From Bacilli bacterium (GTDB lineage Bacteria; Bacillota_I; Bacilli_A; RF39; UBA660), in the NCBI GenBank assembly GCA_017418945.1, contig JAFOMI010000013.1, positions 1 to 53,995 of the forward strand: a stretch of DNA of 53,995 nt, in the 5' to 3' direction. Below, piece by piece: positions 5,061-40,316 of the stretch. Below the pieces are notes generated by a model. It ran no database searches, had not been told where the DNA came from, and was given only the letters and a program-made list of their open reading frames with translations. Each line of letters begins with the position of its first letter. Within the stretch, counting starts at the first letter, position 1. The position numbers and the translations under genes were made by a program.

Positions 5061-5765
5061 ATGAAAAAGAAGTTATATATTTTAATAGTTTTAGTTTTAG
5101 TGGTAGTTGCTTTTTTATTTTTTTATAAGTTTAATATCATGGATAAAAAGACTGATGCATATAAATTTAAAGTAGAGTATGAGTCATTAAATAATAAAGA
5201 TAGTTATGGAAATAACAAATATAGAGAATTAAACATAGATAAGAATAATATGATTAAATATTCTTCTGCTTATGAAGTATTAAGCAAAATTAATAATAAT
5301 GAATCGTTTATAGTATATTTTGGTTTTGCTAAATGCCCATGGTGTAGAAGTATGATTGAAAACCTATTATCTTTAGCAAAACAAAATAATGAAGTTATTT
5401 ATTATGTAGATGTTTATGAAATAAGAGATATTCTTGAAGTTAAAGATGGTAATGTAATTGTATCTAAAAAAGGTGATACAAATTATATGAAATTACTTGA
5501 GAAATTAGATAATGTATTAGATGATTATTCTTTAGAAGTTGATGGTATTAAATATAATACAAATGAAAAAAGAATATATGCGCCTAATGTAGTAGCAATT
5601 ATAAATGGTAAAGCAGTTAAAAAAGTAGAGGGTGTTAGTACTAAATTAACTAATCCTTATGGAAAAATTACTAAAGAAATGAAAAAAGATTCTATTGATC
5701 AATTAAATTGTATATTTAAGTGTTTAGAAGAACAAGGGGTTTGTAAAAAACCAAATGCATGTTAA
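5061..5765 (+). CDS. Membrane-anchored thioredoxin-like protein (CPWC)
   Basis: 234 residues with an N-terminal membrane anchor (about 5-22). The segment ESFIVYFGFAKCPWCRSMIE carries a CPWC redox pair at Cys92/Cys95, followed by YYVDVYEIRDI as in thioredoxin-fold proteins. A second Cys-rich patch at the end (CIFKCLEEQGVC and a terminal Cys) is not part of the normal fold. The domain should face outward, so a role in disulfide reduction or formation of exported proteins is inferred. An extended or plain TATAAT lies about 25 bases upstream and a GTGAGG ribosome site precedes the ATG. Confidence 0.75.
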   Translation: MKKKLYILIVLVLVVVAFLFFYKFNIMDKKTDAYKFKVEYESLNNKDSYGNNKYRELNIDKNNMIKYSSAYEVLSKINNNESFIVYFGFAKCPWCRSMIENLLSLAKQNNEVIYYVDVYEIRDILEVKDGNVIVSKKGDTNYMKLLEKLDNVLDDYSLEVDGIKYNTNEKRIYAPNVVAIINGKAVKKVEGVSTKLTNPYGKITKEMKKDSIDQLNCIFKCLEEQGVCKKPNAC

Positions 5766-5776
5766 GGAGAGATATT

Positions 5777-7231
5777 ATGAGATTAGAAAATGTTTTTGAC
5801 AATTTAAATGTTAAGTTTAATAACAATATAGAAATTAATGGTATTTCTATTGATTCAAGAACAGTTAAAGAAGGATATTTATTTATCGCAATAAATGGAT
5901 TTGATATGGATGGTCATAATTTTATTAATAGTGCTATTGAAAATGGTGCAACAGCAATATTAATAGATGAAGATAGATTAGATGAATTTAAAGATTTAAA
6001 TGTAGAAATAATTACTACACCAAATACAAGAGAACTTGTTTCTTTAGTTTCATGTAATTTTTATAATAATCCATCTAGAGAATTTAAGTTAATTGGTATT
6101 ACAGGAACTAAAGGAAAAACTACAACAACATTCATGGTAAAGAGAATATTAGAAGAAGCTGGTTATAAGGTTGGTTTAGTTGGAACAGTTGCAAATTATA
6201 TTGGAAAAGAAAAATTAGAAGATGCTGATAGAACTACACCAGAACCAACAAAATTACAAGAATTATTTAGAATGATGGCAGATGCTAAATGTGATTATGT
6301 AATAATGGAAGTTTCTTCTCAAAGTTTAAAATTAGGTAGAGTAAATGGTTCTTGTTTTGATGTAGGCTTATTTACAAATCTATCAGAAGATCATATTTCA
6401 GAAAAAGAACATCCTACTATGGAAGATTATTTCTTATCTAAATCAAAATTATTTGATAAGGTAAAAAATGGTTTTACTAATGTAGATGATATTAAAGGTA
6501 AAGAATTAATTTCATTAAAACCAAATTGCAATTTTAAAACATATAGTGTTAATGAAAAATCAGATAAGCAAGCAACTAATATAAGAATAAATAATGTTGA
6601 AACTAGATTTAATTGTCTTATTGATAATGAAGATACTGAAGTAGTCATTAATATACCAGGTGGATTTACAGTATATAATGCTTTAGGAGCAATTTCTATA
6701 TGTGAATATTATAGAGTTAAGAAAGAAGATATAGTTTCAGCGTTAAAAACTGTTTCGGTTCCAGGAAGAAGTGAATTAGTTCCAAATAAATTAGGATTAG
6801 CTTTAATGATAGATTATGCTCACTCAGAAGAAAGTTTAGAAAACATTTTATCTGCAGTTAAATCATATACAAAAGGTAGAGTAATATCTGTATTTGGATG
6901 TGGTGGAGATAGAGATAATAGAAAAAGACCAAAGATGGGTATAGTTTCAGGTAAAATAGCGGATTATACAATAGTGACTTCAGATAATCCAAGAACAGAA
7001 GATCCAGAATTAATTGTTAGAGAAATAGAAGATGGTATAAAAACAGTTACTGATAAATATGAAGTAGTAGTAGATAGAACAAAAGCTATTGAAAAAGCAA
7101 TTAAAATGGCAACTAAAGAAGATTTAGTAGTGTTCGCTGGTAAAGGACATGAAACTTATCAAGAAATAAATCATATTAAACATCCTTATGATGAAAGAAT
7201 AATAATTAATGAAATAATTAAAAAAATGTAA
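5777..7231 (+). CDS. murE: UDP-MurNAc-tripeptide ligase (MurE)
   Basis: 484 residues. It adds the third amino acid to UDP-MurNAc-L-Ala-D-Glu in peptidoglycan synthesis. Mur ligase features: the N-terminal UDP-binding domain (ISIDSRTVKEGYLFIA), P-loop GITGTKGKTTT near residue 106, EVSSQSL, and the C-terminal domain with GCGGDRDNRKRP and DNPRTEDP near residue 403. DNPR is the specificity motif of meso-diaminopimelate-adding enzymes, unlike the Lys-adding staphylococcal type, so mDAP peptidoglycan is inferred. Translation start 5777 is chosen over an upstream in-frame ATG at 5759 because AAGGAGA (5764-5770) sits six bases before it. It closely follows the thioredoxin-like gene. Confidence 0.95.
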   Translation: MRLENVFDNLNVKFNNNIEINGISIDSRTVKEGYLFIAINGFDMDGHNFINSAIENGATAILIDEDRLDEFKDLNVEIITTPNTRELVSLVSCNFYNNPSREFKLIGITGTKGKTTTTFMVKRILEEAGYKVGLVGTVANYIGKEKLEDADRTTPEPTKLQELFRMMADAKCDYVIMEVSSQSLKLGRVNGSCFDVGLFTNLSEDHISEKEHPTMEDYFLSKSKLFDKVKNGFTNVDDIKGKELISLKPNCNFKTYSVNEKSDKQATNIRINNVETRFNCLIDNEDTEVVINIPGGFTVYNALGAISICEYYRVKKEDIVSALKTVSVPGRSELVPNKLGLALMIDYAHSEESLENILSAVKSYTKGRVISVFGCGGDRDNRKRPKMGIVSGKIADYTIVTSDNPRTEDPELIVREIEDGIKTVTDKYEVVVDRTKAIEKAIKMATKEDLVVFAGKGHETYQEINHIKHPYDERIIINEIIKKM

Positions 7232-38349: not shown

Positions 38350-38360
38350 TATTTTTTATT
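38329..38360 (+). terminator. Bidirectional terminator
   Basis: AAAATATTAAC/GTTAATATTTT with TTAC loop serves the converging genes at 37690 (+) and 38356 (-). Confidence 0.85.
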
Positions 38361-38997
38361 TTACATTACTATAAGCTAATTCATCTAGTTTATAATCTTC
38401 TTCTTTAAATTTAAAGTCTTTATCTTTACTTAGTATTAATTCTTTAATTAAAAATGAACAAAATTTTGGATTTCTTACTAATATTGGACCAATAATATAA
38501 GTTCCATAAAAATTATTAATATTTATAATACTATCATCATAAGATAATATATTTCCTATATGATTTTCAAATCCTATTATATCTTCATCAATTAAATTTG
38601 TTTTAATTCTAATATCTTTAACTATTCTATCTTGATGCATTGAAACATAATCATATGCACCTAGAGTTTTTATTTTTTTATCTGCAATTATATAGTTACC
38701 AAATAATTCAACTGAATTACCTGTGCTTAAAATGAATCCATTATTATTAACATAATTAATTAATGCTTTTTCATCTTTTTTTAAATCTTCAAGCGCTACT
38801 AATAAATTATCTTCTGTACCACTACCAATATATAGAATATCAACATCACTAAAATCTTTTTTATCGTTAACGCTCATATATTTTATTACAGTATCTATTC
38901 CTTGTTCATTTAAATGATATTTAAGAGTTTTAATATTTCCAGAATCTCCATATAAGTTAAGTAAATCATGGTATAAATATCCAATTGTTATTTTCAT
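38356..38997 (-). CDS. GatD-like glutaminase homologue lacking catalytic Cys and His
   Basis: 213 residues. It aligns end to end with GatD, the glutamine amidotransferase partner of MurT that amidates lipid II: LNLYGDSGNIKTLKYHL, DVDILYIGSGTEDN, GFENHIGN and GTYIIGPILVRNP. But the nucleophile elbow, normally ICGGYQ.LG, reads STGNSVELFG, so Gly93 stands where Cys is required, and GTYLHGP reads GTYIIGP, so Ile169 replaces the catalytic His. Glutamine hydrolysis by the usual route looks impossible. The ATG overlaps the MurT-like stop (ATGA), with AAGGAGGA upstream, so the pair is still co-translated. Possibly a pseudoenzyme subunit or a new ligase partner. Confidence 0.85.
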   Translation of the reverse strand: MKITIGYLYHDLLNLYGDSGNIKTLKYHLNEQGIDTVIKYMSVNDKKDFSDVDILYIGSGTEDNLLVALEDLKKDEKALINYVNNNGFILSTGNSVELFGNYIIADKKIKTLGAYDYVSMHQDRIVKDIRIKTNLIDEDIIGFENHIGNILSYDDSIININNFYGTYIIGPILVRNPKFCSFLIKELILSKDKDFKFKEEDYKLDELAYSNVK

Positions 38998-40316
38998 TTT
39001 GTTTCCTCCTTAACTTTTTCGATAAATGGTTTTACATAGTCAAAATTTAAAACTGCATAAACATTACCACTTGTTTTATTTTCAATTGTTTCTTTAATAT
39101 TTTGTAAGTCATCAAGTATTATTAATTTATCTTCTTTTATATTTGCGTATTTTAATCTTGTTGCAAAGTCATATGCATAAGGTCCAGCACAAATAATTTT
39201 ATCAATTGATTTATCATCTAATAATTCAAAATAGATATCATATAGCCAAGATAAATCAAAATGTTTATATCTTCTACTTATTTGTCTTAAACCAAGAACT
39301 ATAGTCTTTTTTTCTTTATCCATTGCAGTATAAATTAAGGATAGATTATAAGTTGCATTATTTTCAGCTTTACAATTTAAAATAGTGTATTTTCTATTAT
39401 TTATTTCAAATTCATTAAATATTTTTTGATTAATAGATGAATTATTTATTGTATCTATAATTTTGTCTTCATTTAATTCTAATACTTTACTTATTGTATA
39501 AGTAGAAATAATATTATATAGATTAAATAAAATATAATTATTTACTTTTATTTTAGTTTTTTTGTTAATTGTTATTTCATTATTGTTATAATCTACTTTA
39601 GTAATAGAGTAGGAGATATTATCTCTTTTAAAATCACAATTACTGCATTTATAATTTCCAACACTTCCATAATGATAGTATTCAAATTCTAATTTATTAT
39701 GACATTTAGGACAATATTCATAATCTTTAATATCATTCATTTCTTTATAACTATATTTTGTTTTTTCAATTCCATAATAAGTTATATTTCCAGTATGTAT
39801 TAGACTAAATTTTTTTAGTATTGGATCATCTCCATTAAGAATTAAATGAGTATCTTTATGAATACCTTTTAATATTTCATTATAAACTATATCAAATGAA
39901 CCTTGTCTTGGAGGTTGATCTCTTGTAATATTATTAATCATTAAGTATTTAGGTTTAATGTGTTTAGATACAAATTTAAGATATCTTTCATCAACTTCTA
40001 ACAAAAGTGCATCCGCATTTAATTTTTTTCCTTTAACATTGTTAATAACCGTAGTACAAACTCCATAAATTAGGTTAGAACCTTCTTCATTAGTACATAC
40101 TTTTAATCCATTGTTTTCTAATATTTCTTTAAGTAACTTAACAGTACTTCCTTTACCAGTAGATCCTGTTACCATAATAACAAGTTCTGGATATTTGATT
40201 TTCTTTAAGTAGTTTGGAAATAATTTTAATATAACTTCACCTGGGAAAGAAGATGCATTAAATTTAAATAATTTTTCTACTTTAATAATTGTTTTACCTA
40301 TAAGTGTTCCTATCAT
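38994..40316 (-). CDS. MurT-like Mur ligase homologue with altered active site
   Basis: 440 residues from ATG 40316 (GGTGAT four bases upstream). Homologous to MurT, the ligase half of the MurT-GatD lipid II amidating complex: NEEGSNLIYGV, LLLEVDERYLKFVSKHIKP, LILNGDDPIL, four zinc Cys (202, 205, 224, 227 in CPKC and CSNC) and DLSWLYDIYFELL. Departures: the P-loop GTNGKTTT reads GSTGKGST (the Thr after Lys55 is Gly56), FFRDQMDRFGE reads ITRDQPPRQGS, AKNPAGxN reads CKAENNATYN, and NDNxADGRDxSW reads RQISRRYKHFDLSW. The zinc ribbon and the fold are kept while nucleotide-site residues change. Confidence 0.82.
   Translation of the reverse strand: MIGTLIGKTIIKVEKLFKFNASSFPGEVILKLFPNYLKKIKYPELVIMVTGSTGKGSTVKLLKEILENNGLKVCTNEEGSNLIYGVCTTVINNVKGKKLNADALLLEVDERYLKFVSKHIKPKYLMINNITRDQPPRQGSFDIVYNEILKGIHKDTHLILNGDDPILKKFSLIHTGNITYYGIEKTKYSYKEMNDIKDYEYCPKCHNKLEFEYYHYGSVGNYKCSNCDFKRDNISYSITKVDYNNNEITINKKTKIKVNNYILFNLYNIISTYTISKVLELNEDKIIDTINNSSINQKIFNEFEINNRKYTILNCKAENNATYNLSLIYTAMDKEKKTIVLGLRQISRRYKHFDLSWLYDIYFELLDDKSIDKIICAGPYAYDFATRLKYANIKEDKLIILDDLQNIKETIENKTSGNVYAVLNFDYVKPFIEKVKEETK

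Follow-up and report, generated by a model that had tools for sequence, protein, structure and literature searches.

A MurT/GatD-type gene pair of uncultured Bacilli with a predicted loss of the glutaminase site and retention of the ligase site

Several Gram-positive pathogens cannot live without MurT/GatD, which is under study as a drug target; the lipid II isoglutaminyl synthase formed by the two proteins has been described from Staphylococcus aureus, Streptococcus pneumoniae and Streptococcus pyogenes. A precedent for a synthetase with a defunct glutaminase is ammonia-dependent carbamoyl phosphate synthetase I, which retains a GATase-fold part without the catalytic Cys and uses free ammonia, but differs from the pair described here in being an unrelated synthetase, a single polypeptide, and in having a different acceptor. 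Both lipid I and lipid II are substrates of MurT (PMC3266927, cited in PMC6085368). MurT of S. aureus is inactive alone, and GatD is still needed for ammonia-dependent amidation; the GatD-C94G exchange abolishes the use of glutamine but does not affect the amidation of lipid II with ammonia at pH 8.5 (PMC3266927).

Here, we analysed a MurT/GatD-like pair encoded in a stretch of 53,995 nucleotides from a Bacilli bacterium (the window). The clade to which it belongs shares with the MurT/GatD synthase the gene pair and its order, the folds, the zinc ribbon, the ATP, Mg2+ and acceptor residues and most gate and interface residues. It differs by the absence of the glutaminase Cys and His, an altered oxyanion GGG, a new TGN(S/A) pocket, the MurT loops ISRRY and KxENxxS, and a P-loop that often reads GKGS. 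The C94G laboratory mutant of S. aureus (PMC3266927) has in common with it the Cys-to-Gly exchange and the continued need for GatD, and can use ammonia; however, it retains His189 as well as the MurT loops of the canonical enzyme and is engineered rather than a natural clade. Classical Mur ligases and FolC share the central ATP domain, and the GKGS-type P-loop resembles that of FolC, whereas the MurT-like protein has a zinc ribbon, a GatD partner and a MurT_C domain and is without the UDP-binding N-terminal domain. In the literature searched, we found no description of a MurT/GatD variant lacking the glutaminase Cys (hereafter non-Cys).

The gene pair in the window

Both open reading frames are intact (Table 1), with the ATGA at 38994-38997 providing the stop of the MurT-like and the start of the GatD-like gene. 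Comparison of the window with its closest relative gave dN/dS values of ~0.21 for the GatD-like and ~0.19 for the MurT-like gene, and the description of the genes in a first-pass annotation as intact, overlapping by ATGA and not decaying was borne out. The MurT-like protein matched the Pfam domains MurT_C (E=7.7e-20) and Mur_ligase_M (E=7.8e-10) and the GatD-like protein GATase_3 (E=3e-11). Judging from MurT_C and GATase_3 subunits being encoded together, the pair belongs to the MurT/GatD kind. MurT and GatD were also the top-ranked NCBIfam models, despite scores far under the equivalog cut-offs (194-197 bits against 800 for MurT and 90.9 bits against 400 for GatD). The NCBIfam folC model reached 25.7 bits on the MurT-like protein (cut-off 162.65), covering residues 36-74 and thus the P-loop region only. 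The predicted fold of the GatD-like protein (mean pLDDT 96) matches S. aureus GatD (6gs2_A) with a TM-score of 0.88, and that of the MurT-like protein (mean pLDDT 92) matches MurT (9sq9/9sqj); for both models, the best fold matches were MurT and GatD of S. aureus, S. pneumoniae and S. pyogenes.

The genome containing the window is an 868 kb draft of 64 contigs and 85% completeness. It encodes one MurT_C and one GATase_3 protein, both at this locus, so the search for a second, canonical pair, which had been proposed as a check, found none. Its other Mur ligases are MurC, MurD, two MurE-like proteins and one MurF-like protein. The amino-acid-binding motif of the two MurE-like ligases (window 5759-7231; L175) reads DNPR in one and DNPI in the other.

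Table 1 Features of the MurT/GatD-like pair in the window
Feature	Position	Strand	Remark
GatD-like pseudo-glutaminase subunit, 213 aa	38356..38997	-	Gly93 for Cys, Ile169 for His
MurT-like ATP-dependent ligase subunit (predicted), 440 aa	38994..40316	-	overlaps GatD-like gene by ATGA
Glutaminase nucleophile stretch, rewritten: S-T-G-N-S-V-E-L-F, residues 91-99 of GatD-like	38701..38727	-	
Gly93 codon of GatD-like protein, Cys position	38719-38721	-	
G-T-Y-I-I-G-P-I-L, residues 165-173 of GatD-like, Ile169 at catalytic His position	38479..38505	-	
P-loop T-G-S-T-G-K-G-S-T, MurT-like residues 50-58	40143..40169	-	Lys55 99% conserved
C-terminal loop I-S-R-R-Y, MurT-like residues 346-350, in place of DNxxDG	39267..39281	-	

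Glutaminase and ligase sites across the clade

Alignment to GatD places Gly93 at the position of the catalytic Cys and Ile169 at that of the catalytic His, in agreement with what had been read from the window alone. We compared 193 genomes of the family of the window genome, which is probably GTDB UBA660 of the order RF39; MurT was present in 82 of them, and nearly all genomes compared here are drafts. The family yielded 87 informative GatD reads: in 83 of these, Gly replaces Cys and I/L/T/V/F replaces His, while four keep both residues. A second genome collection, which overlaps the first, gave 73 non-Cys and seven canonical loci out of 80. The recurrence of these replacements in both collections greatly exceeds what chance would produce. 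The non-Cys type was also detected in two genomes from another family of the same class. Across 107 representatives of the non-Cys GatD, Gly occupies the Cys position in 100% and His is retained in 0%. The His is replaced by I/L/T/V/F/S throughout the clade (I45 L42 T7 V4 at position 169, in %), as opposed to 100% His in canonical pairs. The pocket carries a new conserved motif, T-G-N-S/A (Thr92 97%, Asn94 91%), and the glutamine-capturing Arg124 is still 81% conserved.

The substitutions had been expected to be common to a whole clade, and this is what the tree shows: in a MurT tree of 135 representatives, built by a quick method and without use of the GatD residues, one branch (SH-aLRT 98) parts 107 non-Cys from 28 canonical members, corresponding to one change. 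A single branch, an invariant Gly, a His that is always lost and a newly conserved pocket motif thus argue, at the level of sequence, that the Gly93/Ile169 state is neither a sequencing error nor decay. An artefact, whether by sequencing error or by catalytic residues having moved elsewhere in the chain, could be suspected from the draft state of the window genome, but is extremely improbable: the same residues recur in more than 100 genomes, no column of the non-Cys GatD alignment exceeds 22% Cys, which also speaks against the relocated Cys that had been named as a possible refutation, and the fold model superposes on GatD. The GatD-like gene at L067:4245-4970 (G156) contains one in-frame TAA, from an error or a recent loss.

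For MurT, we scored residues shown or inferred to be catalytic in S. pneumoniae and S. aureus by mutation or structure (PMC6085368, PMC6113224). The clade conserves Lys55 (99%), Asn81 (99%), Glu107 (98%), Asp109 (99%), Glu110 (98%), Asn129 (100%), Arg137 (97%) and Lys316 (99%), and the counterparts of S. pneumoniae MurT K59, E110, D112, E113, N85 and N132 are kept in 98-100%. The first-pass annotation had considered catalytic residues replaced in both subunits; this does not hold for MurT, in which ATP, Mg2+ and acceptor residues are kept at 94-100%. Its reading of the zinc ribbon, the GKGST P-loop and the rewritten KNPAG and DGRD blocks stood. The RDQ block is not rewritten: R132-D133-Q134 is intact in the window and kept at 94/98/88% in the clade, and it is the residues after it that are altered. 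The zinc ribbon is present in the clade (C202, C205 and C224 100%, C227 78%). The acidic gate is largely kept, with Asp198 (D72 N26), Asp354 (D83 E8) and Asp360 (D99, all in %), as is the interface aromatic contact Tyr359 (Y69/W28%).

The Mg2+-binding P-loop Thr (T60) is Gly in the window and mostly Gly, sometimes Thr or Ser, in the clade, where GKTS, GKSS and GKGS forms are all present. The T60A exchange renders S. aureus MurT dead (PMC6113224). Since the exchange to Gly is not uniform and the folC model matches the same stretch, Gly alone does not imply a dead ATP site. Rewriting affects two loops, DNxxDG being replaced by ISRRY (S86 R75 R76 Y86; canonical pairs D96 ... D100 G93 at the aligned positions, in %) and KNPxG by KxENxxS. 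Judging from its residues, the MurT-like subunit is not dead. As far as sequence goes, the earlier proposal of a repurposed complex, its glutaminase subunit being dead, is thus supported, and the predicted loss of the glutaminase site alongside a kept ligase site extends over more than 100 genomes of a family of uncultured Bacilli and some of its relatives.

Exclusivity and the link to peptidoglycan synthesis

The pair is present in 78 of the 193 family genomes, eight of which carry two or three non-Cys pairs, suggesting more than one specificity. None of the family genomes has both a non-Cys and a canonical pair, and multi-pair genomes carry non-Cys pairs exclusively. In the second collection, 20 of 23 genomes have the non-Cys type and none of these has a canonical pair, the type being called by MurT_C score (<=87 versus >=108 bits). 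In one genus (g41; G041, G175), murT and gatD lie on different contigs, with gatD intact and its TGNS motif kept; gatD is therefore not merely an operon passenger. The idea that the MurT-like protein acts without GatD in this genus was rejected, as gatD is present but unlinked.

We found no conserved same-strand neighbour around the pair that would name the substrate. In individual genomes, it adjoins murE and a murF-like gene (L082), murC (L070), murD (L071) or ftsA-ftsZ (L058, L080). The MurF-like ligases (L082:1282-2904, L264, L276-L278) are 527-543 aa long; the two scored, those of L082 and L264, do not reach the murF cut-off and carry a hydrophobic stretch at the N-terminus. The MurD model matched in 188 of the 193 family genomes, some of these being cross-matches only. 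Six of the nine genomes without MurC-F carry the pair, which is not a significant enrichment (Fisher p=0.17). In six genomes of 92-95% completeness (G021, G043, G058, G077, G083, G161), the MurT-like protein is the sole protein with a Mur ligase domain. MurG scored above cut-off in five of these six, with weak matches only in G077. The five thus represent near-complete genomes with MurG kept and MurC-F absent, a wall pathway without its UDP-peptide half. Four further genomes (G099, G114, G147 and G183, at L263, L257, L259 and L262) combine a non-Cys MurT with a single other Mur ligase, MurE or MurF.

For G083, 1.39 Mb were read in contigs up to C20, and the family searches covered the whole genome. 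Homologues of MurG, FtsW-like, FtsZ, FtsA, DivIB and VanY were found there by tblastn, whereas MurB-F and MurI were not; SEDS proteins are present, and crude motif searches together with inspection by eye yielded MraY, MurA and several PBP candidates. Given that MurT uses lipid I and lipid II and that late steps are kept in genomes without MurC-F, the pair appears to go with the lipid-linked half of wall synthesis. Missing precursor steps and a need for scavenged muropeptides have already been proposed for RF39 (PMC10868615), where MurT and GatD are unmentioned. Glutamine does not seem to be globally abandoned, because further enzymes that use glutamine look intact (GatA in the window, GatA and AsnB in G083). 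A replacement of FolC was also considered and rejected: FolC is lacking in every one of the 193 family genomes (none above E=1e-25) while the pair is in 78, and its absence does not explain the distribution of the pair.

Possible functions of the pair

With the glutamine-splitting site lost and the ATP-using ligase site kept, the complex probably decorates wall precursors with free ammonia or another amine. Our best explanation, with a probability of roughly 0.45, is a ligase for lipid II that depends on ATP but not on glutamine, with a pseudo-glutaminase as its partner and ammonia as the most likely donor. This explanation builds on the disappearance of both Cys and His within a single clade, the retained MurT active-site and interface residues, the exclusivity with the canonical pair, the retention of the pair beside late peptidoglycan steps and the retention of GatD even where unlinked. 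The clade would have given up glutamine hydrolysis, and MurT would bind Mg-ATP and turn a carboxylate on a lipid-linked precursor of peptidoglycan into an activated acyl phosphate, the most likely target being the alpha-carboxyl of D-Glu in lipid II. This would be coupled to a free amine, most likely ammonia arriving via the acidic gate conserved at the interface with GatD, giving an amide. The GatD-like protein would no longer make ammonia and may persist as an indispensable partner, structural or allosteric, that gives the gate its shape. Ammonia is the simplest donor because S. aureus C94G keeps ammonia-dependent activity. Against it stand the rewritten C-terminal loops facing acceptor and donor, with conserved basic residues (ISRRY) that the use of bare ammonia does not need; the multiple pairs in 8 of 78 genomes, the intact look of GatA and AsnB, the 81% retention of Arg124 and the Gly in place of MurT T60 weigh against the explanation as well.

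Some of these features lead to an alternative donor. MurT may add a small amino acid, e.g. glycine, or another amine to the D-Glu alpha-carboxyl of lipid II, with the basic ISRRY holding the donor carboxylate as in classical Mur ligases and the pseudo-GatD helping to bind or gate the donor. Conserved ISRRY and KxENxxS in place of the loops of ammonia-using MurT, the paralogous pairs and the retained Arg124 fit this idea, and in a profile alignment SRRY comes to lie close to GDRDxxKRP of MurE, although gap placement could shift the register by several residues. The acidic gate for ammonia, however, is kept too, and we consider an amino-acid ligase, the main rival reading, possible but rather unlikely. 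Its most specific form, a natural lipid II amino-acid ligase derived from MurT/GatD that reuses the former glutaminase pocket to bind or sense the donor and creates a new stem type, is more doubtful still. Free ammonia and another ligation substrate, both raised by the first-pass annotation, are live options.

A different acceptor, such as another undecaprenyl-linked or membrane glycan with a carboxylate, would leave the chemistry unchanged and could account for the genomes in which MurT is the sole Mur-ligase-domain protein. Yet MurG in five of those six genomes, together with MraY, SEDS proteins and PBPs in G083, weakens a role outside the wall, as does the position of the pair beside wall and division genes, making this acceptor improbable. 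A complex without catalysis, binding ATP or lipid II in a structural or regulatory role, would suit the dead glutaminase and the P-loop Thr replaced in most members; it is hard to reconcile with the near-complete conservation of the MurT ATP, Mg2+ and acceptor residues, and we regard it as quite improbable. The regulator of a canonical pair suggested earlier finds nothing to regulate, as there is just one pair in the window genome and the two types never occur together in a sampled genome.

A natural clade in which the glutaminase is dead but the partner subunit is always kept separates the production of ammonia by GatD from its other role, the activation of MurT. Our preferred ammonia-fed ligase and its amine-adding alternative predict that uncultured Bacilli, many of which come from gut and rumen samples, either amidate with free ammonia or have a new wall chemistry. 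If the amino-acid ligase reading were true, a large family of uncultured bacteria would have a new type of peptidoglycan stem.
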